Assembly: GCF_001315985.1 (NCBI RefSeq)
Contig: NZ_BBBI01000011.1
Coordinates: forward strand, 1-64,000
Length of the DNA stretch: 64,000 nucleotides
From: Vulcanisaeta distributa JCM 11216
Lineage (GTDB): Archaea > Thermoproteota > Thermoprotei > Thermoproteales > Thermocladiaceae
Reading direction: 5' to 3'
This document shows positions 1 to 64,000 of this stretch, in pieces. The notes under the pieces are model-generated. The model made no database searches and was not told where the DNA came from. It saw nothing but the letters and a program-made list of their open reading frames with translations. The position numbers and the translations under genes are program-made. How positions within the stretch are numbered: position 1 is the stretch's first letter; every line of letters starts with the position of its first letter.

Positions 1-1
1 T

Positions 2-1147
2 GATGTTCCAATCATTGAGTACGCACTAGCCCTGGCTTGGTCAAGGGCATACAACACGAGCGTAATAGCAATACCCATGCCAAAATACCCAAGCGGCCTG
101 AACTACGTGGCGGCATTCGGCAACAACCACGTCCTCATAATAGGACCACACACATTAACATCAGCCCTAAAAATCGCAAACAACCTATGGATGCCAATAA
201 TAACGAAACAACCACTGGCCGATCCTGCTGATGATATATGTGAGCAATTGATTCAGGAATATAAAGTGCCGACCAACCAGCCTGCCCAGGTTAATAATGC
301 CTACGTGATTGTTTATGGTGAGCAGGGTTATACTGACTCATATGGCTCGGCTGTCGTTGACTTCTGCGTCTCATGGGCTGGCATAGTCGACACTCAATAC
401 AACGGTTACTCAATTGGCTACGCCGAACTTTACAACTACATATACTACGCACCTAACACGGGAACCTCGATCAACTACCTCAAGTCCTTCCAGGATGCCT
501 ACGCATCATACCTAGTCTATGAGTGGTGGGAGGGTCAGAATTCGCAGATACCGGGTGATGTTGAGGGAATTGCCTCAATCGGTGGTGGTTACGAGCCAGG
601 TTACTGGACGAGCACAGCGGGCTTCGCACCGCATGCCCAGCAGTGCTCAGTGAGTGGTGGTTATACCATCTCCTTCGCCACCAGCTTCTCAATATCACCA
701 TCAGGTCCCAGGGGAGGAATAACCGTGGGTGGTTCAATACAGCAGGGGTATAGTTGTCCTCAGGTTAATTTGAACGTTATATCCTCAGGATCTAATTCAA
801 CGCCCATTGGTGGTGCCGTTAATACCACGTGGATTTATCAACCAACCACGACAAAGACCGACATTAATGACTTCGCAACCGAGAGTGAGGGCAACACCTA
901 CATGGGCCCCCCCGCCAATAACCCACAACCCACAGCCTATACAATACCCGCCGGTGTCTCGGCATGCCTTTATAATGGTAACTACGAGCACATGGTCTAT
1001 GACATCACCTGGGATGTCTGGGTTAACACCAACGGCGCCATGAGCTCCAACTCCTTTGGCGTATCAGGCCCGCCACCAGCCTATAGCCCAAGCACGTGGA
1101 CTTCAAGCAACGGCTTCTACATAACTCATCAATACTGTTCCGGCTAG
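2..1147 (+). CDS. Secreted or surface protein of unknown function, 5' truncated
   Basis: The reading frame is open from the first bases of the window, so the start and any signal peptide lie outside it. The visible 381 residues are rich in Tyr, Gly, Ser, Thr and Asn and poor in charge, with scattered Cys near the middle and end (one is third from the C-terminus). This composition is typical of extracellular proteins of thermoacidophilic Crenarchaeota. Gly-Gly and Pro-rich patches and NST/NTT sequons fit an exported, glycosylated chain. I recognise no catalytic motif or named family. The frame ends at TAG just upstream of the convergent tRNA gene. That it is a real gene is likely; exported location is inferred. 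Confidence 0.6.
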   Translation, partial: DVPIIEYALALAWSRAYNTSVIAIPMPKYPSGLNYVAAFGNNHVLIIGPHTLTSALKIANNLWMPIITKQPLADPADDICEQLIQEYKVPTNQPAQVNNAYVIVYGEQGYTDSYGSAVVDFCVSWAGIVDTQYNGYSIGYAELYNYIYYAPNTGTSINYLKSFQDAYASYLVYEWWEGQNSQIPGDVEGIASIGGGYEPGYWTSTAGFAPHAQQCSVSGGYTISFATSFSISPSGPRGGITVGGSIQQGYSCPQVNLNVISSGSNSTPIGGAVNTTWIYQPTTTKTDINDFATESEGNTYMGPPANNPQPTAYTIPAGVSACLYNGNYEHMVYDITWDVWVNTNGAMSSNSFGVSGPPPAYSPSTWTSSNGFYITHQYCSG

Positions 1148-1276
1148 CAAAGAACCACCCCCCCTCAAATAAATTAGAAGCAATCGATTCACCAAACAAT
1201 CCAAACCCAAAAACCACAAGGCCCAAAGGCAAAGTCTCTAATTGCCGATTTTCATCATTAATAATGCAATTTCTTG

Positions 1277-1371
1277 TGGCGGCCCCCCCGCGGGATTTGA
1301 ACCCGGGTCCTACGGCTCTCTGCCTATTACAGCCGCAGGCCGCCGCTCTATCCATGCTGAGCTACGGGGCC
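1277..1371 (-). tRNA. tRNA-Arg (anticodon GCG) with a 15-nt intron
   Basis: Read on the minus strand, the gene starts GGCCCCG-TA-GCTC at 1371 and ends G73-CCA at 1277, so CCA is encoded. The anticodon stem GCGGC/GCCGT brackets 22 nt. CTGC pairs with GCAG to form the 4-bp central helix, flanked by 3-nt bulges GGC and AGA: a canonical archaeal bulge-helix-bulge at position 37/38. Cutting it removes 1318-1332 and leaves the loop CTGCGGA with anticodon GCG at 1334-1336. Two defects stand out. The 3' acceptor strand has seven G where four are needed to pair with the 5' CCCC, and the T-stem lacks one G. Both look like sequence errors. Confidence 0.9.
1318..1332 (-). other. tRNA-Arg intron (bulge-helix-bulge)
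   Basis: This is the 15-nt insert between anticodon-loop positions 37 and 38. Its last bases GCAG pair with exon CTGC, and each bulge is three bases cut after the second, the classic substrate of archaeal splicing endonuclease. No other placement of a 15-nt intron gives this geometry. Confidence 0.8.
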
Positions 1372-1435
1372 GTAGTAGTGTCTCTCCTTATGATTTAAAG
1401 TCTTTGCCTCATGGATGGATTGTTGGGATATGGTG

Positions 1436-3326
1436 TTAATTTATTTCGAGTCCCTTGTCTATCGTTACTTTGAATTTTCTCCACCAGTTTATGTAGTCCT
1501 CATAGTCCTCGAAGCCCCAATCCTTTGACCCGATTTCCCTGGCCATTGTTGAGACTACGTCCCTAGCCCTCCCGCTCTCCCACGGCATGGGTTCTGCACC
1601 GGCCTTTATTGAGTACTCGGCTATTTCCTTATAGAGGTTCTTATTTGGTCCCATCCCCCCCGTGACTTCTACGTATAACTTCTCAAGTACTGGTTCGGCC
1701 CAACCCCCCCTGTGGAACCTGCAGAGGCCTGCATCATCAATCAAGGCTTCCGCAATTGCCCTGCCTAAGGATGATTTGGCGAAGTCCTCCGGTCCCATGA
1801 ATGTTGGTGTGTAATTCGTCCAGTACCTACCGAGTACGTACATTGGGGCGACCATGCCGGGGGCCCAGTATAGGTTTGGTGTCATGTAGCCGTCATTCCC
1901 GTAGGCAGCATAAACCACTAAGTCCCTAAAGGATTTACCAACCCTTAATACCCTGTCATGGAATACCTCATCAAGTTTCCTCGCGGCAACCCTAACGCCA
2001 TTCTCAGCGATTATCTTAAGCACCTCGCTGGACTTCTCGACAAAGCCCTTAATAACCTCACTAGCCAGTCTCGCATTCCTCCTCGAATCAGTCTCCGGGT
2101 TAAACCTCATGGGGGGGTCGAACACGGGCTTATCACTAAGCCCAGCCTCATCCGGCCTCAATAGCCCATTCTCAATCGCGTCAAAAATCCACGCAACCAC
2201 ATGCCCCATCTCGATAGCATCCAGGCCGTACTGGTCTATTAAGTCCACGAGTGATACTGCCTCCTCGAATACGTAATTACCAATGAAGGGGCCCATGGCG
2301 TGGAACGGCTCGTAATCCACCTTCTTACCGCGCCAAACCTTCTTACAAACCACCGAGCACCCGAAGTCACCGCAATTATACCAACTCTTACCCTTGACAA
2401 AGACCTCATCATTGAAGGGCTTCCAGAAAAGCCTCAGTATTGCCTCAACGTGTTGAATTCTCACCTCCCTGGGCAGGTATATGGACTTATAACCAAAGAG
2501 GGGCAGTAACTCGCGGTAATGCGGGTAGTTAACGCCGAAGGTGCCTCCAGTGCCCATGCTTGGGTCGAACCTGTACTTAATGGTCTTCTCATCCATGACC
2601 TGCCTAAAGGGTTTCTTAAAGGACTCAATCATCAACTTATTAATGAAGTCCATATCATTGACCTTCACATACCTTGCCCTATACGTGCCGCCAGCCACAA
2701 TGCCAACCACGTTATGGCCCATGGCGAGGGCAGTGCCTGGCCCGCCCCTGGCGGCGAAGTCCTCAGCCCCCCCAGGCCTGAACTCGCCTTTTATTGGATT
2801 AACATCAATGGATACCAAGGCACCATTATACGTACTCAACGCGGCTGGACCAACAACCACGGCCCTCGCGTTGTACTTAACGAAGAAGTCCCTATAGGCG
2901 TCGAGTAGGTACTTCGTGAAGGCGTAGGCGCCGTGGTAATTACCATACTCAAAGACTGGGTCAATACTCTTCAATTCAATGCCATCGCTCGACAGGAAGA
3001 TTACTGTTGGTCTCTTGGCCTTACCCGCTATCACCAATGCATCAATGCCAGTCCCATGAACTTGTACGCCGCGCCGCCCAGGGCAGCCACGTGAAGCGTC
3101 CTCGTCATTGGGCTCTTGAAGACCGCAATTAACCTGTGGAAGCCTGGCATTTTACCGCCAACGAATGGGCCCATGCCTATTACAAACGGCACACTCGGTC
3201 AAGTGGGTCTAGGCTCCAGGTCCTTGCCTCATTATGTATCCTAACGCCTAGGGTCACTGGTCCCTGTGCTGTTGCATCCTCGATACGCCACGAATTCTCA
3301 TTAAGGTCTAGTCTAAGTACCTTCAC
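1436..3326 (-). CDS. Tungsten-containing aldehyde:ferredoxin oxidoreductase family protein (frameshifted)
   Basis: AOR-family enzymes oxidise aldehydes with ferredoxin as acceptor, using a tungsto-bispterin and a 4Fe-4S cluster in the cytoplasm. The intact 533-residue part has the family Cys set: NCGDFGCSVVC near its middle and AGLCRFHR late, which supply the cluster ligands. The N-terminus is recovered by joining frames upstream: a GTG at 3326 begins VKVLRLDLNENSW, followed after lesions near 3200 and 3050 by a block reading IGMGPFVGGKMPGFHR. The repaired length of about 630 residues suits the family. Substrate is unknown. A second, separate AOR lies at 49.6 kb. The upstream spacer holds the CBS gene promoter on the other strand. 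Confidence 0.8.
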
Positions 3327-3410
3327 GCGTACTGATTTTTTGAGCTCAATAATAGGCTTTCTTGAGTAAACTGTGAATAGGTAATACCTCCTTAATATGG
3401 GTCTTCGGAG

Positions 3411-3423
3411 AAATACTTATTAA
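3411..3423 (+). promoter_or_regulatory. TATA box of the CBS-protein gene
   Basis: AAATACTTATTAA fits the archaeal BRE/TATA consensus. The same core occurs upstream of eL31 at 11181. Its centre is 41 bases before ATG 3458, so this transcript should carry a leader of about 14 nt, which contains repeated ACCCAG. Confidence 0.55.
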
Positions 3424-3431
3424 CTTATTAC

Positions 3432-3456
3432 ACCCAGTTATACCCAGTAGACCCAG
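3432..3456 (+). repeat. Three ACCCAG direct repeats in the CBS gene leader
   Basis: ACCCAG occurs at 3432, 3442 and 3451, spaced 10 and 9 bases, about one helical turn apart, between the TATA box and the ATG. It could be a regulator site or a chance repeat. Confidence 0.4.
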
Positions 3457-3457
3457 C

Positions 3458-3843
3458 ATGAGGATCAAGGAATTAATCAGGGATGGCGTCATATCCTGTA
3501 AATCCATTGACCCAATAACCTGCGCCGTCGCGAAAATGTACATGCACAATGTCGGCAGTGTCCTTGTGATCGACGAAGATGGTAAGCCAGCCGGCATATT
3601 CACAGAGAGGGACCTGGTCAGGGTTGTGGCTGAGGGCATTAGCTCGACACACCACTAATGAAGGTTATGAGTAGGAGGTTAATAACCGCGAATACCTCGG
3701 AATCCGTGATCTCGGCCGCGATGAAGATGATTGAGAACAACATAAGGCATTTACCTGTTGTTGAGGAGGGTAGGGCAGTCGGTATGGTTAGCATTAGGGA
3801 CTTGGTGAGGGCTTTGATGGCTCAGGAACTATCTTATCCATAA
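3458..3843 (+). CDS. Protein of two CBS domains (frameshifted)
   Basis: A stand-alone CBS pair (Bateman module) of about 130 residues. Such proteins bind adenine nucleotides such as AMP, ATP or SAM and act as energy sensors or partners of other enzymes. The first CBS contains VGSVLVIDEDGKPAGIFTER and the second HLPVVEEGRAVGMVSIRD, each ending in the usual RDLVR helix. The frame breaks after AEGIS near 3644: restoring one C gives AEGISLDTPLMKVMSRR and joins the halves. It is divergent from the AOR gene and has its own promoter. The role of the pair here cannot be told from sequence. Confidence 0.85.
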
Positions 3844-4022
3844 TTTGTTGGTTCACTGACGTAGTAACGATACACGTGTAACCCAATAAAAATGATATAT
3901 TGTAAGAAATTGATAAAATCCTACGGCACATAATTATTTTTATGCTAAAACGTAAAGGTTATGAATTAATTCCGAAAAAGATACTTCGCATTTTAAATAA
4001 TTATTACTATACTAGTCCCAAA
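3844..4022. other. Intergenic spacer without recognisable features
   Basis: AT-rich spacer between the convergent CBS gene and the small winged-helix gene. I see no open frame, hairpin or repeat I can support. Confidence 0.4.
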
Positions 4023-4207
4023 TTATGTGGCTTTATATCTCCCGTCCGTCTTAATTACCTTACCATCCTTTATTAATCTCGTGAGTTGGGCCTTAACCAC
4101 GTTCAATCTCTCCTCACCAATGGCCCTAGCGATTTCCTCGGCAGTGAATTCCTTGCCTTATTGCTTGTGAGATAGTCAAGTATTTTCTTCTTGATGCCCT
4201 CAACCAT
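4023..4207 (-). CDS. Small winged-helix DNA-binding protein (one-base deletion)
   Basis: Translating the minus strand from ATG 4207 gives MVEGIKKKILDYLTSNK, then a break at 4153. Restoring one A (AA to AAA) continues as KEFTAEEIARAIGEERLN, VVKAQLTRLIKDGKVI and a TAA at 4023. The result is a 61-residue single winged helix: helix 1, the FTAEEIARAIG turn, a recognition helix with QLTRLIKDGKV, and a short wing. Such mini-HTH proteins are common in crenarchaea, usually as transcriptional regulators. The TATA-like CCTTTATAAC lies about 25-30 bases upstream. The gene is too short and too broken to show as a long open frame. Target unknown. Confidence 0.65.
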
Positions 4208-4490
4208 ACAATGTAAATACTACTTCCTTAGGTTATAAAGGTATTGCCTTTATATTTGTGAAGTATCACCCGTAGTTTGCCCGGTCATTTGATGATATAA
4301 TTGAGCCTATGAACATGTTCATCACTTATTTTACTCCCTGAGAAACCCTTTATTTTCCCATATATTATATAATTCATTTCATGAAATTTAAGGTTATTCA
4401 TTTTCATTATACGCATGTAGAAAGAGTTTCAAATTTTGGCCATCATGGGCAATAACCTATTATACCGGCCTGTAGTGTTGTTAGGTTGTA
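4208..4490. other. AT-rich intergenic region with two palindromes
   Basis: No coding frame is visible. The region serves the divergent winged-helix and beta-CASP genes. It holds the perfect palindromes ATGAACATGTTCAT (4309-4322) and ATTTCATGAAAT (4376-4387), either of which could be an operator. The run around 4360-4380 is very AT-rich and could be a promoter. Confidence 0.4.
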
Positions 4491-5511
4491 ATGGGTAGGT
4501 TTAGGGCGTATTATGATGATGGGATTGTGGTAGAGTATGAGAATAGTAGGTTCGTTATTGATCCATTAAAGAAGCCGGTTACTCCATTCAACGCGGTATT
4601 GATAACACATGGGCATAGAGACCACGTCAACCCAAGGGTTCTTTATAATGTGTCGCCTCTCATTATGAGTGATGAAACGGCAAGGATAATTAGGGCTCGT
4701 GATGGTGATTACCTTAGGCACATCACTGTTGGTCCGGGTTCTAGGCTCGTTATTGATAATGTCTTGGTTGAATCCTTCAATGCTGGTCATGTGGTTGGTA
4801 GTTTATCCTACGTGCTTGACTTTGGCGATCTTAGGGTTGGAATTACGGGGGATTTTAATGTGGAGCCCTCAATACTACTTAGTGGTGCTAAGGGCCTTGA
4901 CGTTGACGTACTTATTATGGAGGCTACGTATGGTGACCCGGACTACGTATTTCCAAGCAGGCGTGAAGTGTATGAGGAGTTAAGGGCCATCGTTGATGAC
5001 GGCACTAGGGATGGCGTTACCGTGCTTATGGGTCAGCCACTTGGCCGTGGGCAGGAACTCACCGCATTGCTTAAGGACTACCAACTCTATGTGGAGCCTA
5101 GTATTAAGGTGATTAACAATGTACTGGGTTTAAGGTATGGCTCAGTGGCCAGTGGTTTACCGCCCCCCTGGCTCCGTCATCATTATGGGAATCCCCAGAG
5201 ACACCACGCGCCTCATTAGGACTCTGAGGAGTAAGTATGGAAGTGTGAGGGTCGTTGCATTGAGCGGTATGTACGCTAAGCGATCGAGGGCTTCCCAATT
5301 AGGCAAACTTGGCATTGATGCAATACCGCTTAGTAGCCACTCGGATTTTCCCGGTCTTGTGGACTTTGTACTAAGTAGTGGGGCTAGGTTTGTGTATACT
5401 GTTTATGGAAATGCCGCTAAATTTGCGAAGTACCTAAGGAGTGAGTTGGGTATCATGGCCAGGCCATTGCCGGGGGGGCATGGCCAATTAACCATGGATT
5501 ACTTCCTATAA
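4491..5511 (+). CDS. Metallo-beta-lactamase-fold RNA/DNA nuclease, SNM1/CPSF-like (frameshifted)
   Basis: About 340 residues. The zinc site motif ITHGHRDHV starts near residue 39, then DxxF of the beta-strand GITGDFN, then HSD in PLSSHSDFPGLV, which matches motif A-B of the beta-CASP branch acting on nucleic acids. The length suits archaeal SNM1/Artemis-like exonucleases rather than the longer KH-containing aCPSF1. The frame breaks at a C6 run near 5163: with five C the chain reads SGLPPPGSVIIMGIPRDTTR and continues to TAA at 5511. The SAM hydrolase gene follows by 34 bases and may be co-transcribed. Substrate is inferred from the family only. Confidence 0.75.
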
Positions 5512-5545
5512 ATGCTTAAATCAGTATATGGTGTTAGGTACTTTA

Positions 5546-6362
5546 ATGAGACCGGTGATAACATTACTCACGGATTTCGGGTACGAATCATACTTTGTAC
5601 CGGCAATGAAAGGCGTAATACTTAGCCTTAATCCCGAAGCCTTGATAATTGACATCACACATTCAATACCGCAGTTCAATGTGTATAAGGCCGCGTTCAC
5701 GCTATGGGCGTCATATAAGTACTTCCCAAGGGGGGGTACAATACATGTGGTTGTTGTTGATCCAGGGGGGGTTGGTACGTCGAGGAGAGCCATAGTCATA
5801 AAAACTAGGAATTATTACTTCGTAGGTCCCGACAATGGCGTGTTGATGATGGCTGCCGAGGATGACGGCATAATCGACGTCAGAGCAATTGAGAATAGGG
5901 AATTCATGAGACCAATTATGTCGAGCACGTTTCATGGACGTGACGTCTTCGCGCCAATCGCTGCCTACATAAGCCTTGGTTTAGACATATCATTACTTGG
6001 GCCTAGGGTTACTGACCCTGTCAAACTTCAGGGCATTACAAGTAGGATTTCCAGAGATTCTGCTAACTCGGTTATTGTATATATTGATCACTTTGGTAAT
6101 GCATATACAGGTATTAAGGAGGGTGATCTCGGGGGGGTTCTCGGTCTTAAGTATGGTGATGAATTACGTGTTAACATACCAAAGAAAAACATCGAACTTA
6201 AGGTCAGGTTCCTAAGGAGCTATGGCTATGCCAATGAGGGTGAGGCGCTGGCTCTCGTTAACAGTGAAGGCTTCCTGGAGCTCTCGATTAATAGGGGGAA
6301 ACTTTGCCCAGAGGTTTGGTGTTGAGGAGGGTGATGAGGTCGTTATTTCCGTTATCAAATGA
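5546..6362 (+). CDS. S-adenosyl-L-methionine hydrolase (adenosine-forming), DUF62 family (frameshifted)
   Basis: The family hydrolyses SAM to adenosine and methionine. The N-terminus MRPVITLLTDFGYES with the following YFVPAMKGVI, the DPGVGT(S)RR loop and NYYFVGPDNG are hallmark motifs. I chose ATG 5546 because the family begins at TLLTDFG; ATG 5528 is possible. In this window the loop reads DPGGVGTSRR and the strand before it PRGGTIHVVVV, each one Gly longer than the family, both at G7 runs. Near 6295 a G5/A3 stretch shifts the frame; repaired, the chain ends NFAQRFGVEEGDEVVISVIK at 6362, overlapping the convergent MGMT gene by a few bases. Confidence 0.88.
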
Positions 6363-6910: not shown

Positions 6911-6960
6911 TTAGTTCAATTATTTAGGAGACCTTAAAAACCCTGTCCCAAGGCGCTTCT

Positions 6961-7248: not shown

Positions 7249-7253
7249 TCATA

Positions 7254-7776: not shown

Positions 7777-7831
7777 TTATGGCAATTCTTGCAGTTAACA
7801 ATTTATAATTCCACCAGCCCTCAGGAAGTTA

Positions 7832-11612: not shown

Positions 11613-14263
11613 GTGGTTAGCAATAGGACGTTGCAATTAATGTCTAAGCTGTTTACGGCCATCCTCTACTTGGCAATCTCCCTAATGGCGTTCCTGATAG
11701 ACTTCCCATTTTACCCAGCCCCGGTTGCGCTACTGATTATAGCCGTGACCACGGCGTTGGCCTACTCGGGTCATGTTAAGCTTGGTTTTGCGATAATGAC
11801 TATTCTCTTGATACCGGCACTTCTTTATGCTTATGAATATGCGGCATTGGGTGTTCTGCTTCTGATATTGATCCTCTTTGTTTTGATTAGGGTCTTTGAT
11901 TGGTTGGGCGTTGGCGTTGGTATGCTTGCTTGGGAGTTCTCAGTAATGCCTAACCCACTTTATGTTCTCTCGGTACCGATTATACTGACCTCGCCAAGCC
12001 TTACGATAGGTGTTTCAAGGAGGGTGACGCCGCTTAAGTCCTTAATAACATTCCTAATACTATATATACCAACACTACTGTTGTTAAATGCTAATAATGT
12101 TGTTCCCTGGTTTGGTTATGTAGGCCTGAACCTGTCTCCGCTTCAGACGCTCACTGTTAATTCAATAACGAGTGCTCTAGGTAATATAAATGTGGGACTT
12201 TACGGGCTGTCCCAATCAATTAATAGGGTCTTTACCTGGACCAGTACTTACGTATTACCGGCAATAATGGCATTAACGGCATATACGGCGTACGTAATAT
12301 CAAGTAAATTGAGGTCACATGATAATAAGGTGATTAGGTACCTGGCGCCTGCCATTGGTACGATGACGGCCTATGCCTTAATGACGTACCTATTATTTTA
12401 CATGAATCCATACTTCGGTCTTTACCAAGGCATTGACGTTAATACTCTAATGCAGGGGGCTATTACCCGCACTAATCATTAGTCTCGCCATACTACCATT
12501 AATAATGCATTTTAGGCTCGTTGAGATTAAGTTTGAGCAGGAGGAGAAGCAGTCGATGATCGCCCTCGAGCGTGGTTACCAATTAATCCTTAACAAGGAC
12601 GAACTAAGGTCACTTGCCAGTGAGTGGGATAACGTGGTTGGGCTCGACGACATTAAGAATGAGATAGAGACCTCGGTCATAACGCCACTCAGGGATGTTA
12701 AGCTATCCCAGAAGTACGGCTTGATGCCAATACATGGAGTACTCCTCTTTGGTCCTCCCGGCGTCGGTAAGACGATGCTCGCCAGGGCGATAGCGGGCAG
12801 GTTAGGTTGGACGACGATAATAATGAACCTCGGAGAATTGCTCAGTAAGTACTACGGTGAGAGCGAGAATAGGCTTGCAGAACTTTTCAGGGTGGCTAAG
12901 AATTACGCACCGACGGTGATAATAATCGATGAGTTTGACGCCATTGGCAAGGCCAGGACCAAGTATGTAAGTGATGATGTTACACCAAGACTATTAAATA
13001 TTTTACTTAGTGAGATGGATGGGATAACCAAGAGTAATGAGAATATCCTGGTAATCGGAACAACAAACCAGCCAGACCTCCTAGACCCTGCGCTTCTTAG
13101 GCCTGGTAGGTTCGATAAGGTCATATATGTGCCACCACCGAATGAGGAAACCAGAGCTAAAATGCTTGAGGCAATGCTGAGGGGCAAACCCATCCAGGAT
13201 CAATTGACTATGCGAAGCTTGCGAAGATGACTGATAGGTTTACGGGTGCGGATATAATGAATGTGGTTAGGACGGCCGTGCTTGAGTCATTGAAGGATGG
13301 TAAGCCAATAACCCAGGGAAAGCTCGAGGAGATAATCAATAGGTACAAGCCGAGCCTCACGTATGACCTGCTTGAGAAGTACGAGGCCTTCAGGCTTCAG
13401 TACAGTAGATTGAGGACTTATGGAAAGGCCCAGGTCGGTATCCCGGAGGTTACTTGGAATGATATTGGTGATCTTGATGTGGTTAAGGAGGTCATTAATA
13501 AGTATGTAATAACCACGATGCAGAGGAGAGATATACTTGAGAAGCTCGGTATAGAGCCGATACACGGAATCCTACTCTTTGGTCCTCCCGGCGTCGGTAA
13601 GACCCTCGTTGCTAAGGCGACGGCTAATATGCTCAAGGCAAACTTCGTAGAGCTCAATGGCGCCGAATTGGCTAGGGTTGGGCCTGAGAGGGCTGCCGCA
13701 GTTGTTAGGGACGTGTTTAACATGGCCCGTGACAACGCCCCCCCAGCCGTAATATTCATTGATGAAATAGACTCAGTAGCGCCGCCTAGGGATTCACCAA
13801 TAGGTGGTGTTTGGTCTAATGTGGTTTCCCAATTATTGACAGAGATGGATGGGTTGAGAGGATTAAATGGGGGGGTCATCGTTATTGCGGCTACGAATAG
13901 GCCTTGGTTCATTGACCCTGCGCTTCTTAGGCCTGGTAGGTTCGATAAGGTCATCTACATACCACCGCCCAATAGGGATGCTAGGCGTGAGATTATTAGG
14001 ATACACATTAGGAATGCGGAGGTTGAGGAGGGGTGATTGATTGGGTTGCCGAGGTCACTGAAGGTTACAGTGGTGCGGACTTGGCTGCGTTGGTTAGGGA
14101 GGCTAAGATGAGGGCCTTGGATAGGGTTTTAAGTGGTGATGAGAGGATTAAGATTACGAGGGAGGATTTCGAGTATGCGCTTGGTAAGGTTCATCCATCA
14201 TTAAGTAAGGAGGTACTTAGTCAGTATGAGGATTTTATTAAGAGGGTTAACTTGATGGTTTAG
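11613..14263 (+). CDS. Membrane-anchored double-AAA ATPase, Cdc48/VAT-like (frameshifted)
   Basis: Residues 1-290 form a polytopic membrane domain with about eight hydrophobic segments. It runs, after one repair at the G5 run 12455 (four G gives MQGLLPALIISLAILPLI), straight into a basic stretch and two AAA domains. D1: GVLLFGPPGVGKT, IIIDEFDAIG, GTTNQPDLLDPALLRPGRFD. D2: GILLFGPPGVGKT, VIFIDEIDSVAP, AATNRPWFIDPALLRPGRFD. Other lesions: one A lost at 13202 (IQDQIDYAKLAKMTDRFTGAD) and one base lost at 14030. C7 and G7 runs add P and G in DNAPPAVIF and LNGGVIV. The usual Cdc48 N-domain is replaced by the membrane part. Start GTG 11613 is 26 bases after TTTTTAAAG. Likely unfolds membrane proteins; inferred. 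Confidence 0.75.
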
Positions 14264-17205: not shown

Positions 17206-18421
17206 ATGGTTAGGAAATTAATACTGTTCCTAGAGATGCATCAACCAAGGAGGTTAAAATACGGCGTACTTAATAAACTATGTGATTTGAGGAGTGATGA
17301 AATTAATGAAGTAGGTATAAGTTCGATAATATTTAATGACGAAGTGAATAAGGAAATACTGAATAGGGTTGCCGATAGGTCCTATGTACCAACTCGAGTT
17401 AATGAGGGATTTGGGTAATGAGGGCTTTAGGACCGCAATTTCGATTTCCGGTTCATTAATTGAACAATTATTAATGTGGCGACCAGATGTTATTGACCTG
17501 CTGAAGGAATTAATAAGGAGGGGTATTATTGAGTTGGTTGCTGAGCCTTATCATCATTCCTTGGCATCAATAATTAGTAGAGATTTATTTCTTGAGGAGC
17601 TGAGAGATCACGTTGAAATCAATAAATCACTATTCGGTCAAGTGCCTATTACCTACGAGAACACAGAATTCCTCTATAGAAATGATTGGGGCGCATTGAT
17701 GGAAAAGGCTGGCGCGGCTATCGTGCTTACGGAGGGGGTTGATTGGGTGCTTGGTTGGAGAAGCCCAACGTATTTATACGGCGCGCCTAATTTAAGGATA
17801 AAGCTATTATTGAGACATTACAGGTTATCTGATGATATTGGTTTTAGATTCAGTAATAGATCCTGGGATCAATGGCCATTAACTGCTGATAAGTACATGG
17901 CATGGATTAGGGCAACCCCCCCAGGGGATTTCGTGCTAATTGGCCTAGACTTTGAGACATTTGGTGAACACCATTGGCGTGAAAGTGGTATTTTCGAGTT
18001 CTTGGCCTGGCTTCCAAAGGAGGCACGTAGGGCTGATGTTACTTTCATACAACCATCATCATTAGTCAATGAGGAACCCATTGATTATTTAGACATCCCA
18101 TCAACGATATCTTGGGCTGATGTTGAGAAGGATGATAGTGCATGGCAGGGAAATGAACTACAGAGGATAGCGCTTGAGCACGTGGTCTCCATAGGCAATC
18201 TAATGAGGTCATACGGTCTTGAAAAAACCTGGAGATACTTGTTAATGAGTGATCATTATTACTACATGTCGATGAAGTACGGACCAAGTGGTGAGGTTCA
18301 CAATTACTTTAATCCCTTTAATTCTGCATTTACTGCTTTTAAGGCCATCGAGGATGTGGTTGTGGGAATTACATGTGCGCTAGCTAATGCAAGAAAGGAT
18401 AGGTTTTATGGGATTAAGTGA
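17206..18421 (+). CDS. Glycoside hydrolase family 57 protein, alpha-amylase-like (frameshifted)
   Basis: About 405 residues. GH57 marks: the opening LILFLEMHQPRRL (HQP), the E-P-Y-H-H block (LVAEPYHHSLAS), and GLDFETFGEHHW, which contains the catalytic acid region of GH57 amylases. YENTEFLYRNDWG and LTEGVDWVLGWR follow family order. The frame breaks near 17375 between VADRSYVP and MYQLELMRDLGNEGF. A C7 at 17925 gives ATPPGDF. No signal peptide, so it is cytoplasmic, acting on glycogen or maltodextrin. A partner hypothetical gene precedes it. Confidence 0.85.
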
Positions 18422-38521: not shown

Positions 38522-39445
38522 TCACAATACCAATTGCTTAAAAAAATCCAACTTATTAAATGGTCTTAAGTCATCATACCCCCCCTGCCCAACACCCAGG
38601 AAATAAATGGGTCTCTTGAGCTCGTGAAGGAAGGTCAGTATGGCACCACCTTTCGGGTACGCATCAACCTTAGTGACTACCAAGCCGTCAATCCTCACGT
38701 ACTTACTATAGTACTTGGCAATGTCCAGTGCCTCATTGCCCAGCAATGCATCTGCGATGAATATGGATATGTCAGGTCTACTAACCCTCTGCACCTTACT
38801 TAGCTCATTCATTAGGTTAGTGTCTGTGTGCATTCTACCGGCTGTGTCTATCATTACGTAGTCAATACCCCCCCTATTCCTGGCGTGGCTTATCGCATCG
38901 TAGGCAACAGCGGCTGGGTCGGAACCATAGCCATGCTTTATAACCCTAACACCAAGCCTCGTTGCATGACCCTCCAACTGCTCAATAGCGCCGGCTCTAT
39001 AGGTATCAGCCGCGGCCCAAACGGCCGTGTAGCCTCTCTTCATTAGTTGATGCGTTATTTTAGCAATAGTTGTTGTTTTACCATAACCATTGGGGCCCAG
39101 GAATAGGAGGACGACGGGTTTCTTTTCCTGAAGCATCTTAGTGACCTCGCTCATGAAGTCCACATCAGGTACATCACTAAATAGTTTGTTCATCACATCG
39201 AGTACTCCATTTTTAATTATTGATTCCTTATCACCAAACCTAGGCACCCTTAGGTCTCTCAGGTAATTAATTATTGCGTCGCATATTGCGTCGGCAACGT
39301 CAACGGCAACGTCGGACTCCACCAATTGCATGAATAATTCATCACGAATTTCATTAAGCTTATCCTCGCTTAACTCCGTCGTTGTTATTGAATTAACTAA
39401 CGTGTTTGTGAATGTTTTAAACGCATTCTTCAATTTATCAAACAT
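38522..39445 (-). CDS. ftsY: Signal recognition particle receptor FtsY
   Basis: SRP GTPase, 307 residues. N domain from residue 1, then VLLFLGPNGYGKTTTIAKI (G1), WAAADTYRAGAIEQL (G2), DYVMIDTAGRMHTD (G3), VVTKVDAYPKGG (G4), and the closing LGVGQGGYDDLRPFN. Relatives read GQGYDDL and ARGIDYVMIDTAGR; here GQGGYDD and NRGGIDY carry an extra Gly at C7 runs 38580 and 38872. No frame break. It is 13 bases from prefoldin alpha, which it follows. Confidence 0.95.
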   Translation of the reverse strand: MFDKLKNAFKTFTNTLVNSITTTELSEDKLNEIRDELFMQLVESDVAVDVADAICDAIINYLRDLRVPRFGDKESIIKNGVLDVMNKLFSDVPDVDFMSEVTKMLQEKKPVVLLFLGPNGYGKTTTIAKITHQLMKRGYTAVWAAADTYRAGAIEQLEGHATRLGVRVIKHGYGSDPAAVAYDAISHARNRGGIDYVMIDTAGRMHTDTNLMNELSKVQRVSRPDISIFIADALLGNEALDIAKYYSKYVRIDGLVVTKVDAYPKGGAILTFLHELKRPIYFLGVGQGGYDDLRPFNKLDFFKQLVL

Positions 39446-42581: not shown

Positions 42582-43945
42582 TTAATACTTGCCTTTGGAT
42601 AATACCCTGGCTGCTGTGATTAGCGGGTGCCAAATTGGCGCTGTTGGTGGTGAATATGATAGATCAGCGAAGAAGAAGTCATCAATGGTGGCGCCCTTCC
42701 CTATCAATGCGGCTGCCACGTCGATATAACCAGCAATTATTTTGTCAGGGCCTATTACCTGAACTCCGAGAACCCTACCGCTTGATTCGTCAATGGTCAT
42801 CTTAATATTAACTTGGACACCACCTGGGTAGTAATGAGCCGTGGTTCTGGCCTTAATCGTGGTAGACACAGGCTTGAACCCCCCTCCTCCCTTGCCTGCC
42901 TCTCCGTGAGCCCGGTCCTAGCCACGTAGAGACTGAACACCTTAGTCACGGCAGTACCTAACACACCTGGGAATTTTAGGAACCTGCCCTTGACTGCATT
43001 CGCACCAGCCACCTGCCCCCATCTTATTAGCCGGCGGTGCCAATGCAACGTACATCCTCTTCCCAGTGATTAAGCTCCAGGTCTCAGCCACGTCACCAGC
43101 CGCATAAACATTCGGCACAGAAGTCTCCATGTACTCATTAACCCAGACAGCCCCCCCAGTCTCGCCGAGCCTCGCGCCAGCCTTAACTGCGAGATCCACG
43201 TCCGGCCTAACGCCAACACCCATAACCACCTTATCAATATTGTACTCGCCCTTCTCCGTAATGACCTTATTCACGTGGCCATTAACACCCCCCCTGAAGC
43301 CAACAACCTTCTCATTAAGGTGTAGCTCAACACCATTCTTAATGAGTTCATCATGTATTAGCTTAGCCATGTCCTCATCAAATGTCGTTGGTAATACGTG
43401 AGGCATCATCTCAAATAGGAGCACCCTCTTACCGAGGTTCCTAAGCGCTCGGCAACCTCAAGGCCTATGTAGCCACCACCAACCACGGCAACGGTACTCG
43501 CCTTCTCTACTTCCTCCCTTAATTTTGGCGCTTCATGTGGAAGCCTGAGTGTCAATATGCCATTTAGGTCGTGGCCCTCCACAGGAAGTGTTATTGGTTT
43601 TGCGCCGGTGGCTATTATGAGTACGTCCCATTGATACTTAACCGTTTCATTACCCTCCCTGGCATACACGACCTGGTTCTTAGTGTCCACATCAAATACC
43701 TCAGCGTTTATTTTAACGGTTATTCTTCTCTCCTTAGCGAACTCCTCCGGGGGGGTATATATCGCTAGGTCCTGAGCCTCCTTAACCACACCACCTATGT
43801 AATAAGGTATTCCACAGGGTGCATGGCTTATGAATAGGCCCTTATCAAGCATCACTATCTCTGCCTCCGGGTCTAGCCTCCTAGCCCTAGCTGCTGCCGA
43901 TGCGCCGGCGGCGCCGCCACCGACTATTACAACACGTTTGCCCAT
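42582..43945 (-). CDS. FAD-dependent CoA-disulfide reductase/NADH oxidase-like enzyme (frameshifted)
   Basis: From ATG 43945: FAD motif VVIVGGGAAGASAAARAR, redox Cys in HAPCGIPYYIGG, IIATGAKPITLP, NAD motif VAVVGGGYIGLEVAERL, NVYAAGDVAE and the C-terminal dimer domain (TAHYYPGGVQVNIKMTID). Lesions near 43430, 43030 and at the C6 run 42880 (four gives AREEGFKPVSTT). C7/G7 runs make GETGGAVWVN and YTPPEEF, where relatives read TGA and TPEEF. About 455 residues. It keeps CoA or other thiols reduced, or reduces O2. Confidence 0.88.
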
Positions 43946-48747: not shown

Positions 48748-49510
48748 TGGGTGATTACGTGGTTAGATTCGTGAATGCCAGGATCGGCTATGAGGAGCCG
48801 ATCATTAGGGATATCGCGCTTAATATACCAACGTCAAGCCTAACAACGATACTCGGGCCCAATGGTTCTGGAAAAACCACGTTACTTAGGGCCATAATAA
48901 AGTATGCAAGGCTCTTTGGCGGTTATATCTACATTGATGGTAAGAACATTAGTGAGGTACCGATTAGGGACTTGCCGAGGTACGTATCGTACTCGCCAGC
49001 CGAGATTTACTCGCAAATGGCGTTAACGGCCCTTGACGTGGTTATGAGTTCACGAAATGGCGGTGGTTGGGTAAGTAGGGATGAGGCAATTGCCGTGCTT
49101 AAGTACCTGGGTATAGATGATATTGCGAATAGAAGGTTTGATGAATTGAGTACCGGCCAGAAGAGGCTTGTTTTGATAGCGAGGGCGTTGGCTTCGAAGG
49201 CCTCATTACTGTTGATGGATGAACCAACGTCAAACCTAGACCTCGGTAATAAGTATAGGGTTATCCATACGTTGAGGAGGATCGTTAGTGATAGGGGGGG
49301 GTTACGGTGATAGCCGCCGGTCATGACATTGACCTGGCGTTAGCCAGTGATTGGGTTGTGGCGTTGAAGGATGGTGAGGTTATGGCGATGGGCGTTCCAG
49401 AGGATATAATTAATGGTAAGGTTTTAAGTGAGTTGTATGGTGTTGATGTGGAGGTTTTTGATGTGGATGGGCGTAGGCTTATTTATGTTCGTGATGAGTT
49501 CGTAAAATAA
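48747..49510 (+). CDS. btuD: ABC transporter ATP-binding protein, FecE/BtuD type (frameshifted)
   Basis: Walker A ILGPNGSGKTTLLRAIIKYA, Q-loop region YSPAEIYSQMALTALDVV, signature ELSTGQKRLVLIARALAS, Walker B LLMDEPTSNLDL, switch His in AAGHDIDLALASDW. A G8 at 49293 breaks the frame before VIAAGHDID; six G reads SDRGVTVIAAGHD. GTG 48738 is an alternative start; ATG 48747 overlaps the permease stop. About 255 residues. Completes an importer with the two genes before. Confidence 0.88.
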
Positions 49511-55575: not shown

Positions 55576-55610
55576 TCTTTAAATAATCTAGAGGTGCAGG
55601 TTCAGCTTGC

Positions 55611-57410: not shown

Positions 57411-57468
57411 CACTTAATAAATACAAAAGGTTTAATAGAGAGGTCTACGTGATTAATCAGGAAGGGAT

Positions 57469-57936: not shown

Positions 57937-57958
57937 TTTAAAATTAATATTGATTTAA

Positions 57959-58330: not shown

Positions 58331-58371
58331 ATAGATTTACACGCGTAGTTTTATAAACCTAACACACAGGT

Positions 58372-59223: not shown

Positions 59224-59325
59224 TGACGCTCCTCATAATTGTGCGGAAACCCCCCCTAAATTAATTTATCCTGTGGTCTTCGTGTGGAATAAAAATTAAT
59301 AAGTGCTGTAAAACTCTGTAAATCG

Positions 59326-60776
59326 ATGAGTAAGGTCATAGAGTCTGTACCAGGCATTGTGTCTTACAGCACGGTTAGGGAGGTTAAGGGGGGGCCATTG
59401 ATAGTTATCGAGAAGACCAAGGGCGTTGCATATAACGAGATAGGCGAGGTCATAGGCCCTGATGGAGAGCCTAGGATGGTTCAAGTCGTTGAAGTTGGTA
59501 GTGATTATGCAGTGGCTCAGGTACTTACGGGTACACTCGGTTTACCTGCCAGGGGGGGTAGTACTGTGAAGTTTTATGGAAGAACTCTCAGGATGCCTGT
59601 CACTGAGGACTTATTAGGTAGGGTTCTTGATGGTAAGGGGGGGCAACCAAGGGATGGATTACCACTGCCTCCAGCCGAGGAGTACCTAGACATAAATGGT
59701 GAACCGCTAAATCCATATGCGAGGGAGTATCCGGAGGAACCAATAGAGACTGGTGTAAGTGTTATTGATGGTTTAAACACAATGGTTAGGGGGGGTCAGA
59801 AGCTACCTATATTCAGTGGCACGGGGGGGCTTCCGCACAACATGTTAGCTGCCCAGGTAGCTAGGCAGGCAACGGTTAGGGGGGGTCATGAGGAGGAGTT
59901 CGCAATAATCTTCGCCGCAATGGGCCTTAAGTCTGAGGAGGCTTTATTCTTCTTGAATGAGTTCAGGAGGACTGGCGCGTTGAGGAGGCTTGTCATGGTT
60001 TTGAACCTAGCGAGTGATCCAATTGCCGAGAGAATACTAACACCGAGAACCGCATTAACAATTGCTGAGTACCTGGCGTGGTATAGGGATTATCACGTGC
60101 TAGTAATATTGACAGATATGACGAATTATGCGGAGGCACTTAGGAATTATCATCATCGAAGGGTGAACTACCTGGCAGACGTGGTTATCCAGGCTATATG
60201 TACACGGACTTCGCGACTATCTACGAGAGGACTGGCAGGGCTAAGGGTAAGAAGGGCAGTATTACGCAGTTCCCAATATTGACGATGCCTCACGACGATA
60301 TAACGCACCCAATACCTGACCTGACGGGTTACATAACCGAGGGACAACTAGTGCTCAGTAGGACTCTGTGGGGGGGTAAGGGTATTTACCCACCGTTTGA
60401 CGTGATAATGAGCCTATCGAGGCTCATGAAGGACGCGGTTGGCGAGGGTAAGACGAGGGATGACCATAAGTACGTGGCCAATCAATTAATTGCCGCCTAC
60501 TCAAGGTCATTGGATGTTAGGAACCTAGCGTTACTCGTTGGTGAGACTAACCTGAGTTGGCGTGAGAGGAGGTATCTCAGGTTTGCTGAGCAGTTTGAGC
60601 GTAGGTTCATTAATCAGGGCTATTACGAGAGGAGAACCTTTGAGCAGACGCTCGATATTGCTTGGGATGTTATTAGTATATTACCTGAGGATGAATTAAC
60701 GAACGTACCACCCGACATATCTAAGAGGTATTATAGGCGTTCGATATTTGAGTCCATAAAGGACGTGGGTGCATAA
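59326..60776 (+). CDS. atpB: A-type ATP synthase subunit B (frameshifted)
   Basis: Non-catalytic nucleotide-binding subunit. [75 protein letters not shown], and after one A is lost at 60145 ([20 protein letters not shown]) [20 protein letters not shown] and [20 protein letters not shown]. Relatives read KGPL, GxGx[18 protein letters not shown]: each G7 run inserts one Gly. Length about 480 including those. The rest of the ATPase operon is not in this window. Confidence 0.94.
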
Positions 60777-60844
60777 AATTAGCACTTTGTAAATATTGTT
60801 AATGCATTCGATCGAAAATACTTACAGAGTTCACGGTAGAGAAT

Positions 60845-60854
60845 CTTAATAAAT
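60845..60854 (+). promoter_or_regulatory. TATA box of the RHH gene
   Basis: CTTAATAAAT is centred 26 bases before ATG 60876, right for a leaderless mRNA. Confidence 0.5.
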
Positions 60855-60875
60855 CCTGTAATTATCTAATCTATC

Positions 60876-61088
60876 ATGCCAAAGACCAAGGCGAAGGAAA
60901 AAATGGTGCTGATAAGCGTGCACATACCCAAGCAAATGCTTGAGGAGTTGGATGAGTTTGTAAAGCAGGGCGTATTCCCGAGTAGGAGTGAGGCTATTAG
61001 AATTGCAATAAGGGACTTGCTATATAGGGAGAATTCGAGAAGTAAGACGCAGAATGTGGAGGATCTAATATTATTACCCGGTAGATAA
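60876..61088 (+). CDS. Ribbon-helix-helix DNA-binding protein
   Basis: 70 residues. KMVLISVHIPKQMLEELDEFVKQGVFPSRSEAIRIAIRDLL is a classic MetJ/Arc RHH: the beta strand LISVHIP binds DNA, then two helices with SRSEAIR between them. A short basic tail follows. Small dimeric repressor; target unknown. No toxin gene is adjacent, so not an antitoxin by context. Frame intact. Confidence 0.85.
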   Translation: MPKTKAKEKMVLISVHIPKQMLEELDEFVKQGVFPSRSEAIRIAIRDLLYRENSRSKTQNVEDLILLPGR

Positions 61089-61235
61089 TGGTTCGTATGA
61101 TAGGGTTAATAAAGAATAATAAAACATAATTGTTGGATATTTCTTTTAAAATATTTTTATATAGGTATATATAATATATGTAATTGGCAAAACCAGGCAT
61201 TAATGTTATATTATTAGTACCCCTTCATTAGTGCT

Positions 61236-61817
61236 GTGAGGAGAATAGTGGTTGGTATAACGGGGGGGGCAAGTGGTGTTATTTATGGCGTGAGATTCCT
61301 TGAGATGATTAGGAGGTATGCAAAGGACTCGGAGGTTTACCTGGTCATGAGTAATACCGCAGTTGAAATATTGAGACATGAGGTTGGTCTCGATAAGGAG
61401 TCAATATTGAAACTTGCAAACAGGGTTTACAATGAGGATGAACTAGGCGCACCAATAGCCAGCGGGTCATTTAAGCATGATGGTATGGTAATCATTCCCT
61501 GCTCAATGAAGACCCTGGCATCCATAGCCCATGGAATAACGGATAACCTAATTACTAGGGCGGCCGATGTGGCGCTGAAGGAACGGAGGAAGTTAATCTT
61601 GGTAATTAGAGAGACGCCGCTCAACCTAATACATATTAAGAACATGGAATTAGTTACGTTAGCAGGCGCCATTGTAATGCCTGCAGCCCCCCCCGCGTTC
61701 TATAATAGGCCGAGGACTATTGATGATATGGTGAATTTCATAGTTGGTAGGGTCCTTGACCTGCTGGGTATTGAAAATGACCTTTACAGGAGATGGAGTG
61801 GTTATTCTGAGGAGTAG
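61236..61817 (+). CDS. ubiX: Flavin prenyltransferase UbiX
   Basis: Makes prenylated FMN for UbiD-type decarboxylases. [54 protein letters not shown], and [17 protein letters not shown]; relatives read GITGASG and PAPAFY, so the G8 at 61262 and the C8 at 61685 each add one residue. 193 residues, start GTG 61236. No ubiD is in the window. The upstream spacer (61089-61235) is AT-rich. Frame intact. Confidence 0.93.
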
Positions 61818-61832
61818 CATAGTAATTTAAGA

Positions 61833-62885
61833 ATGGGTTTGTTAAAACGTGTCAATAGGATTATGGATATTCCAATGTGCACGAGGTGCGGCAGGAGACC
61901 AGCAAACTACTATAGAGTATCCAGTGGTGAGAGACTTTGTCTCAACTGCCTGTTTAAGTCTATTGAGGATACGGTGCTTTGGACCATTAGGAAGTATCGA
62001 TTAATAAGTAATGGTGATAAGGTTGGTATAGCAATTAGTGGTGGTAAGGACAGCCTAACCCTAATGTACCTACTGGGTAAGTTTAGGAGGCAGGGCAAGA
62101 TACCTAGGGATGTCGAGTTGGTGGCGTTTAGCATTAATGAGGGTCATCCCTATAGCTGCTTCTATAGGATGGCTAGGGTTGATTATGTGCAGAAATTGAG
62201 TGAGGAATTCAACATACCCTATAGGGTATACACCTTCAAGGAGATATTCGGTGTAACCGCCAGTGACGTGGCGCATGGGCTATGGTCCAGGGGGGGCATT
62301 AATGTGCATATGTGCACCATAGACGGCGTGCTAAGGCGTAGGGCAATGAACATAATCGGCCGCCAACTAGGCCTAACGAAGATAGCCACTGGGCATAACC
62401 TGGATGATGAGGCTCAGACGGTGTTGCTTAACGTGCTTAGTAATGACTTGGATAGGTTCGCGTGGTTCGGTCCAAGGCCCGAGGTGGATAGGGAGGGCTT
62501 CATACCAAGGATTAAGCCCCCTTCGTTTCGTTAGGGAGGAGGAGATCGCCATATATGCCCACTACCACGGTATACCACTGATGGAGCTTGAGTGCCCCTT
62601 CGTATATAGTAATCCCAGGTATGAGCTTAAGTTCACGCTCGCCCGCTGGGAAAGGGATAATCCGAATATTAAGTATTCCCTGGTATCCTTCGGCGATTCA
62701 CTGGCAAACTTAATGGGCGAGAGGGCTGTGAATGTACCATTGAAGAGGTGCAAGTATTGCGGTGAACCAACGTCTAGTGATGTGTGTAGGGTTTGTGAAT
62801 TGATGAACAGGGCAGGCTTATTGGAGAGGTATTTGGCTCATTTAAGGGCCTTGAAACTTATGGATACGCAATCCCCCCCTCGTAG
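61833..62885 (+). CDS. tRNA sulfurtransferase, TtuA/Ncs6 (TtcA) family (frameshifted)
   Basis: Thiolates tRNA U54 or U34 or C32. N-terminal zinc finger MCTRCGRRPANYYR and CLNCLF, PP-loop VGIAISGGKDSLTLMYLLGK, HMCTIDGVLRRRAMN, IATGHNLDDEAQTVLLN, and C-terminal zinc site CKYCGEPTSSDVCRVC. The C5 at 62517 breaks the frame (four gives RIKPLRFVREEEIA). The end is uncertain: as written the frame runs on to 63000 over the ACT gene, but a five-C run near 62874 would stop it at TAG 62885. A MoaD/SAMP-like protein (6961) could be its sulfur donor. Confidence 0.85.
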
Positions 62886-63544
62886 TTCTTACTTACTGCT
62901 TCAACATTACTCTTTAGGATCTGTGACAGGAATCCCGTGTAGTACTCAATCATTAATTCCTCCATTACGTGCTTATCATTTAATTCAGAGCAGGACTTAA
63001 TGGTGATAGTGCCATTCCTCTCAATAAGCACAACCTTGCCTAATCCCCCCCTGAATTGCCCCCCCATCTTAATGAGTTCACCTAGATTGCTATTACGTAG
63101 TAGTGAGGCATCATAGATCCCCCCCAAGTCCCTAATTATCCTCCTAAACTCCGGATTTGTTAATAGGTCCTTAACCTTCTCAAGCTCCACCACCAGTACT
63201 TGCCTATCCCTGAAGGTGGGCATTATCATTGACGGCACCATAAAGGCCTCCCTCTCAACAATCCTATACCTAACCCACTCAACGAAGGAGAATTTCTTCA
63301 ACTCCTTCTCTAAATCATTTAATGATGTATCCATGTTTGTGAGGTCAACCACGAAGTGCAGTAGTAATTGCGTCCTATTGACTGATATGTTGAGTATGTT
63401 TATCCCGTGATCAGCAAAGACATTGGATAGAGCAGCGAGTATCCCCGGCCTGTCCGCGGTGAACTTAATCAGGAATTCGCCAAGTACCTTGTCCTTACCC
63501 TCAAATGACATCGCAAAGTCCCTGTACAATACCTCCACAAGCAA
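62858..63544 (-). CDS. ACT-domain regulatory protein
   Basis: 228 residues. The ACT domain LIKFTADRPGILAALSNVFADHGINILNI (residues 22-50) binds an amino acid; the remaining part is mixed alpha/beta and not recognised. Archaeal proteins of this shape are often annotated as ACT or GlnD-like regulators. G7 runs at 62874, 63046, 63060 and 63119 encode EGGIAYP, RGGLGK, MGGQF and LGGIYD, in frame, but possibly each one Gly too long. Convergent with the TtuA-like gene. Confidence 0.75.
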   Translation of the reverse strand: MLVEVLYRDFAMSFEGKDKVLGEFLIKFTADRPGILAALSNVFADHGINILNISVNRTQLLLHFVVDLTNMDTSLNDLEKELKKFSFVEWVRYRIVEREAFMVPSMIMPTFRDRQVLVVELEKVKDLLTNPEFRRIIRDLGGIYDASLLRNSNLGELIKMGGQFRGGLGKVVLIERNGTITIKSCSELNDKHVMEELMIEYYTGFLSQILKSNVEAVSKNYEGGIAYP

Positions 63545-63684
63545 CCCTCAAGAAGTCATGGTTTAAAAACTTATTTGCTGGTAACTTACGGAGGTATTTA
63601 ACGAGCATTCATATATTATTACGCAACATAGATGAGTTATCTTTTAAAGGTACTCTTATGCTGTGTATTGGGACCTTTATTGGT

Positions 63685-64000
63685 ATGGAGTTCAAACCAA
63701 GACTTCAGGAGAAGAGATGGGACCCATCAAAGGAATTAGAATTACTCAAGAAGTGGGAGGAGGAGGGCTTATTCGAGGTTAAGATTGATGAGAAGAGGCC
63801 GACGTTAGTAATAGACACGCCACCGCCATACCCATCAGGGAGACCCCCCCACATCGGCGGCATAGCGCATTACGCGCAAATCGACATGATTGCCAGGTTC
63901 TTTAGGATGAGGGGGTTATAACGTAATATTCCCATTCTATGCTGACAGGAATGGACTGCCTGTCGAGGTTCAGGTCGAGAAGACCTATGGCATAAACATG
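63685..64000 (+). CDS. valS: Valyl-tRNA synthetase, 5' part (frameshifted, runs off the window)
   Basis: ATG 63685, MEFKPRLQEKRWDPSKELEL, then RPTLVIDTPPPYPSGRPPHI with the HIGH-type motif written PPHIGG (relatives PHIGG), YAQIDMIARFFRMRG, and after a G5 at 63911 (four needed) YNVIFPFYADRNGLPVEVQV. The TATA box CTTTTAAAG (63641-63649) is 39 bases upstream, so a short leader is expected; ATG 63658 in frame is less likely. Only the first 105 residues are in the window. Confidence 0.92.

Follow-up and report, generated by a model that had tools for sequence, protein, structure and literature searches.

Lengthened G and C runs in the draft genome of Vulcanisaeta distributa JCM 11216: a probable sequencing and consensus artefact

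The first 64,000 nucleotides of contig NZ_BBBI01000011.1 of Vulcanisaeta distributa JCM 11216, here called the window (1..64000, no strand assigned), raise the question of why runs of exactly seven G or C should be so numerous, and whether the residues that they add to conserved proteins exist in the organism. Among the 216 G/C runs of at least four bases there are 106 of length 7 and 10 of length 8, beside 68 of length 4, 23 of length 5 and 9 of length 6 (runs of three number 1235), which bears out the first-pass annotation in its statement that 7 dominates and that 4, 5 and 6 are scarcer. The roughly one hundred runs of six or more that it reported are real, but the count was somewhat low, as 125 were found. 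The extra bases are almost certainly a sequencing and consensus artefact, and the additional Gly and Pro residues are very probably absent from the actual organism.

The window was compared run by run with genome G002 as the main reference (~95% identity to the window) and with two other unaffected relatives, G003 and G007, using the runs that lay within alignments and had the same flanking bases as the reference. The 123 G/C runs of four in G002 appeared in the window with a length of 3 (2 runs), 4 (41), 5 (13), 6 (4) or 7 (63), and 6 of 16 reference G/C runs of five appeared as 8. Runs of one to three bases were almost unchanged (821 of 830 reference G/C 3-runs kept their length) and G/C runs of at least four were lengthened, i.e., the length error is confined to homopolymers; A/T runs of four had the same length in all 144 of 144 cases. 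The most frequent change was +3, which does not match the one-base step typical of flow-platform error. The claim that G/C runs are systematically written as 7 therefore holds as an addition of three bases to runs of 4 or 5 (4 to 7, 5 to 8), but not as a universal length, as some runs gained one or two bases and many were unchanged. A check for the same extra residues in close relatives, as had been suggested, found a reference run of at least 7 at 0 of 84 comparable 7-runs (G002, G003 and G007), the 22 of the 106 that lacked a clean reference being left out. Among the clean reference runs at the 7- and 8-runs of the window, none exceeded the six bases that G002 has at the G8 of 49294..49301 (+).

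The sites named in the first-pass annotation were all present, some displaced by one or a few bases (38579, 59789, 63844, 43749 and 25543). Its assertion that a 7-mer adds one residue was upheld at 13738, 38579, 43749, 59789 and 63844, where comparable unaffected relatives have at most four bases. G002 has 4 at the C7 (as read on the + strand) of 13738..13744 (−) and at that of 63844..63850 (−), the latter being the PHIGG example; at the C7 of 38579..38585 (−), G007 has 4 and G002 has three C after a substitution, exactly 3 bases fewer; and at the G7 of 43749..43755 (+), G002 and G003 have 4, beside a substitution, with the affected genome G008 having 7. The DPGVGT example, a G7 at 5765..5771 (+), gave no clean comparison, G002 reading CC followed by G4 and G003 CC followed by G3 and C, both shorter, and affected G008 CC followed by G8. 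Site 59789 lies in a region of two overlapping open reading frames (59326..60776, +), which we take, following the earlier naming, to encode the ATP synthase B subunit, and which holds seven 7-runs (59388, 59552, 59637, 59789, 59823, 59879 and 60370), at all of which the window is exactly 3 bases longer than G002, G003 and G007. In the same region, at 60145-60147, the window is one base short of these three genomes alike. G002 likewise has 4 at the G4 runs that had been described as untouched at 17520..17523 (+) and 25543, but no clean comparison could be made at 745.

The lengthening was independent of function, as it was found in coding sequence, in a tRNA gene and in the 16S region alike. 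The tRNA-Ala gene (anticodon TGC, 1281..1371, −) contains at 1283 a 7-run that is only four bases long in G002, confirming the non-coding +3 that had been noticed there; the extra 3 bases sit close to the 3′ end of the gene, and its Rfam score (29.9 bits against a cut-off of 29) is barely above threshold. Of the 30 reference 4-runs in the stretch where the 16S gene starts, 14 appeared as 7 (12 runs of at least three were set aside in this count), and one of these changes falls in GGGGATTAGATACCCC, a conserved 16S position.

The window's genome (G000, a Vulcanisaeta draft of a hot-spring archaeon) contains 4803 isolated 7-runs in 2.42 Mb, and there are 0-5 apiece in the ten other Vulcanisaeta genomes without excess among those searched. 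An excess of 7-runs occurs in three of the 81 genomes of the class, namely G000, G008 (which contains NZ_BBBJ01000002.1, V. distributa JCM 11217, BBBJ) and G020, belonging to two genera; the ratio of 7-runs to 6-runs is 16.4, 14.2 and 7.7 in these, versus at most 0.27 in 38 other genomes searched. Affected genomes are interspersed with unaffected ones, G002 (94% identity with a 19-kb query) being clean, and G008 (88%) and G020, of the other genus, being affected. Both G002 and G004 are JCM drafts and have no G7 excess, so the sequencing programme alone does not predict it. The patchy distribution, the comparison with three unaffected relatives and the extra bases in 16S and tRNA together support the earlier suspicion that a consensus artefact, biased towards +3, affects coding and non-coding sequence alike.

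What distinguishes a 4 from a 7 was then sought in the consensus, with tests of context, neighbours and simulation confined to runs of 4 and 7 (those of 5, 6 and 8 being excluded). Context dependence was rejected in G000, where neither three flanking bases per side, nor the base itself (G or C), nor local GC separated 4 from 7 in 1,075 runs, those less than 15 bases from the end of a stretch having been dropped. A site-intrinsic cause was rejected as well, since at orthologous sites of G000 and G008 the state in one genome did not follow that in the other (7/10/8/15, n = 40, Fisher p = 0.75).

The state of a run, 4 or 7, depends instead on its neighbours within ~100 bases, a new observation that was made from the consensus sequence only. 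Neighbours on the same strand within this distance agree in G000 more often than expected (0.756 versus 0.54), and neighbours on opposite strands less often (0.371 versus 0.54), as illustrated by two adjacent G4 runs (711 and 745, in 711..748, +) and the C7 at 907. Agreement of same-strand pairs was present in all three affected genomes, and G020 showed the strand-linked pattern in the same direction as G000; opposite-strand pairs in G008 disagreed little (0.50 versus 0.55 expected, 16 pairs). When strand was ignored, G020 showed no neighbour correlation and G000 a weak one (r values of 0.21 and 0.15, both at distances of less than 100 bases), and the strand split showed that this weakness came from pooling the two kinds of pairs. 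Agreement on one strand together with disagreement between strands is what a read-level over-call of G alone, or of C alone, leaves when the local majority of read strands decides the consensus. A simulated one-strand model with reads of 100-200 bases gave a 7-fraction and a decay of correlation similar to those observed, and a strand-blind null simulation did not reproduce them; the threshold of the simulation (0.45) was arbitrary and unfitted, and below 40 bases the simulated correlation was 0.42-0.58 versus an observed 0.33-0.34. In G020 the 7 state was commoner in C-runs (88/127) than in G-runs (66/127), an imbalance that a symmetric model does not predict and the clearest of the differences seen in some cells of the samples smaller than that of G000.

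The raw reads would thus be expected to carry an over-call by 3 of one base only, G or C as the machine reads, once a run reaches at least 4, and such a one-base over-call would make reads of one strand show 7 and those of the other strand 4. The assembler would keep the locally dominant read strand, perhaps slightly favouring the longer version. The untouched G4 runs fit such a model, in which the fault sits on one read strand and not on the other.

Alternatively, the reads might be correct, with 4 bases, and a pure assembler or alignment fault might have spread the run over 7 columns by its placement of gaps. A quantised +3 is indeed odd for a noisy signal, and the three affected assemblies may have a common pipeline, but A/T runs of four, which are untouched, should then suffer too, and the opposite states of G and C neighbours are not predicted by such a fault itself, making it unlikely as the sole source. 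A modification or adduct of the DNA within G tracts, disturbing the base calls and giving the artefact a biological cause, would accommodate the restriction to G/C runs of at least 4 and the occurrence in three related archaea; this suggestion of the first-pass annotation is not supported, however, since G000 shows no flanking-base context, the orthologous sites of G000 and G008 do not agree, and the state tracks the local strand rather than the site. Sister genomes are clean, moreover, and the sibling drafts G002 and G004 carry a different fault, in A/T runs. PGM templates are clonally PCR-amplified, which would erase a modification if the platform was the PGM. A modification is thus very improbable, and there is as little reason to expect that the G tracts of these Thermoproteaceae strains have some strand-specific chemistry through which polymerase or caller would register G4 as G7 and so report a real modification. 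That genuine GGG insertions, by a mutational process or a mobile triplet, turned G4 into G7 at thousands of sites is hardly credible: a +3 does preserve the reading frame, and sequencing errors in homopolymers are seldom of exactly +3, but the tRNA gene and conserved 16S positions are also hit, the extra bases are missing in a relative of ~95% identity yet found in another genus, +1 and +2 changes occur alongside, and the strand of neighbour runs within 100 bases predicts whether a site is 4 or 7, a dependence for which we know of no mutational process.

The sequencing artefact most likely originated in a run-specific fault of flow calling, an inference drawn because the draft BBBK of V. souniana JCM 11219, whose accession is adjacent to BBBJ, is described as sequenced on the Ion Torrent PGM (PMC9872577); the PGM with Newbler 2.8 was also used for two other JCM drafts, according to the excerpt consulted of PMC3968344. 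The platform would accordingly be flow-based, most probably a PGM, with faulty homopolymer-length calibration in particular runs. In the excerpt consulted of Bragg et al. 2013 (PMC3623719), high-frequency PGM indels are described as mostly single-base, chiefly A/T insertions or C/G deletions, with strand-asymmetric errors dominated by C and G deletions and under-calling taking over as homopolymers lengthen; the errors are mostly not repeated in other runs and are said to give frame-shifts in assembly. The present artefact resembles these errors in affecting homopolymer length with some strand asymmetry, but it adds exactly three bases and only to G/C runs of at least 4, and no quantised +3 step appears in that excerpt. 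Given this step of three rather than one, the artefact would work like a PGM homopolymer over-call, although not in its usual form. No pointer to a 4-to-7 rule was met in the literature searched, at the level of titles and abstract openings. The PGM software may recalibrate homopolymers from length 4 upward only, which would match the threshold, a point of background rather than of evidence.

In three species-representative genomes, 7-runs by the thousand are very probably false; they give conserved proteins an additional Gly or Pro, put bases into tRNA and 16S records that others use, and could enter family alignments as spurious "insertions". The +1 and +2 changes that go with them disrupt reading frames, which may in part explain the low completeness of G000 (67.75%); G002 (63%) and G006 (54%) are also low, without any excess. 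Such genomes are easily screened for by 7-runs that far outnumber the 6-runs (a ratio well above 1), combined with strand-linked neighbours, and the consensus alone, without reads, suffices to recognise a one-strand miscall.

The JCM drafts G002 (NZ_BBDN01000013.1, JCM 16159) and G004 (putatively NZ_BBDM01000004.1, JCM 14467) likewise show homopolymer lengthening beyond a threshold, but theirs affects A/T runs of ~6 with smaller steps, in contrast to the G/C runs of 4 in the window. The counts of A7 and A6 were 223/70 in G002 and 206/118 in G004, versus 8/285, 24/423 and 30/391 in three single-contig Vulcanisaeta genomes.

The number of G/C runs in the window drops from length 3 through 6 and then rises sharply at 7 (1235 runs of 3, 68 of 4, 23 of 5, 9 of 6, 106 of 7 and 10 of 8 in 64 kb); its A/T runs fall off smoothly, with a single run of 7 and none longer. 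The draft genome to which the window belongs (G000; 2,422,819 bases in 65 contigs, 67.75% complete) holds 4803 isolated 7-runs and 502 8-runs against 293 6-runs, and a 284-kb sample taken from it outside the window has a distribution resembling the window's (322 runs of 4, 96 of 5, 33 of 6, 592 of 7 and 75 of 8). As the excess is seen in the window, in the genome totals and in the sample, it is real and genome-wide, and the statement of the first-pass annotation that G/C runs are written mostly as 7 was borne out.

Unaffected Vulcanisaeta relatives, aligned by blastn, served as run-length references; a run was counted when three or more bases matched on either side of it. The 123 G/C 4-runs of the JCM 16159 draft (G002) were found in the window as 3 (2 cases), 4 (41), 5 (13), 6 (4) or 7 (63), and its 16 5-runs as 4 (1), 5 (4), 6 (2), 7 (3) or 8 (6); the length was the same in 821 of 830 3-runs and in all 144 A/T 4-runs. 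Two single-contig references agree, their 4-runs being 7 in the window in 18 of 31 cases (G003) and 15 of 31 (G007). One or more of these three genomes offered a clean reference for 84 of the 106 window 7-runs, and 7 of the 10 8-runs could be compared; in no case did the reference run reach 7 or 8, respectively. In the region 59326–60776, seven 7-runs each carry exactly three bases more than all three references. At 60145–60147, near a frame change between two overlapping ORFs, the window is one base short of the same references; this missing base is outside what a +3 rule explains.

The excess also reaches structural RNA genes, including the tRNA-Ala gene of the window. In a 2.6-kb 16S stretch (gene start and upstream flank), 10 of 30 reference 4-runs were unchanged, 3 were written as 5, 1 as 6, 14 as 7 and 2 as 8, and the nearly universal 16S motif GGGGATTAGATACCCC of the relatives is written with seven Gs in G000. 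One G7 of the relatives' 16S became G8 in this region, from which it may be judged that long runs gain perhaps one base only. The G000 16S gene (G000:C19:39187-40306), rich in 7-runs, reaches the contig end after ~70% of the model; a 16S match was looked for in G008, the V. distributa JCM 11217 draft, and none was found. Two 500-base pieces of the JCM 11217 record NZ_BBBJ01000002.1 match G008 without a single difference.

All named matches of one window gene were to Vulcanisaeta (Thermoproteaceae), the top one being JCM 16159 with 97% protein identity in the best segment. When G000 was counted together with 40 relatives, the sole outliers in 7-runs were G000 itself (4803), G008 (3857) and G020, which belongs to another genus (7958); the remaining ten Vulcanisaeta have 0–5 each, and the top count among all other genomes was 310. 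The ratio of 7-runs to 6-runs was 16.4, 14.2 and 7.7, respectively; none of the other 38 genomes exceeded 0.27. At class level, 3 of 81 genomes are affected, and in a phylum-level sample of 398, from which G020 was not drawn, only G000 and G008 are, the next count being 340. The affected genomes form no clade: the clean G002 is 94% identical over the query, the affected G008 88%, and G020 lies in another genus. Their completeness is 47–68%, and comparably low values also occur without the excess (G002, 63%; G006, 54%). The excess is present in the file and very probably absent from the organism. The earlier reading of a consensus artefact is supported; DNA modification in GGGG, which the annotation left open, gained no support. 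As biology the excess is of little interest, and as a caution about data quality it is of moderate interest.

What decides between 4 and 7 was sought in several places. A cause intrinsic to the site was rejected, the orthologous sites of G000 and G008 showing no agreement (both 4 in 7, both 7 in 15, mixed in 10 + 8; p = 0.75), as was sequence context in G000, where the state was predicted neither by the bases beside a run, nor by whether it was G or C, nor by local GC. The predictor in G000 was the strand of nearby runs, followed in 344 kb (the window and 14 stretches of 20 kb) with pairs taken as same-strand when both were G or both C. Within 100 bases, 75.6% of 246 same-strand pairs were concordant, a value matched by none of 2000 shuffles, and 37.1% of 124 opposite-strand pairs, versus 54% expected from the shuffles; the effect vanishes at 100–200 bases. 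A signed correlogram of G000 has values of 0.33–0.54 at distances under 80 bases, then 0.21 and 0.12 as far as 125 bases; farther out it ranges from −0.13 to 0.11. The window on its own gave 18 of 26 concordant same-strand pairs and 4 of 15 opposite-strand ones. In G020, the values were 67.1% (73 pairs) and 37.7% (53 pairs) with 52% expected, the effect extending to 200 bases. In G008, 74.1% of 27 same-strand pairs agreed (p = 0.03), with hardly any disagreement effect on opposite strands (50.0% of 16 pairs versus 54.6% expected).

This pattern is matched by a one-strand over-call, as we infer from the consensus sequence. Reads of opposite strands would have given different run lengths, the over-call hitting only one of G or C, setting in at run length 4 and adding three bases, and the consensus would have taken whichever read strand prevailed locally. 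A simple, unfitted simulation, in which the long version occurs only on one strand's reads and the local read majority sets the consensus, gave a 7-fraction of 0.65–0.72 versus the observed 0.64 and a similar decay with 100–200-base reads; under a strand-blind null the correlation was absent. The symmetric version of such a model is in conflict with G020, where 88 of 127 C-runs are 7 versus 66 of 127 G-runs.

Flow-based machines read run length as a per-nucleotide signal, and a base-specific length fault is therefore natural on them. The earlier V. souniana draft BBBK, whose accession adjoins that of G008 (BBBJ), was sequenced by Ion Torrent PGM according to the complete-genome paper (PMC9872577), and another report gives PGM with Newbler 2.8 for two further JCM drafts (PMC3968344). 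The quantised +3 of the affected genomes stays the odd point, the available text of a PGM error study (PMC3623719) giving no account of it.

Sibling JCM Vulcanisaeta drafts carry a fault of another kind, in A/T runs, unlike the G/C excess of the three affected genomes: A/T 7-runs outnumber 6-runs in G002 (223 vs 70) and in G004 (206 vs 118), whereas three single-contig Vulcanisaeta genomes have 8–30 versus 285–423. By inference, this supports run-specific calibration faults. Where G002 aligns with the window, its A/T runs of 7–8 correspond to window runs of 6 or 7, ten in all. At G/C runs of 1 and 2 in G002, the window has one base more 14 and 23 times, compared with 0 and 1 times when G003 is the reference, which suggests under-calls in G002, consistent with its 63% completeness.
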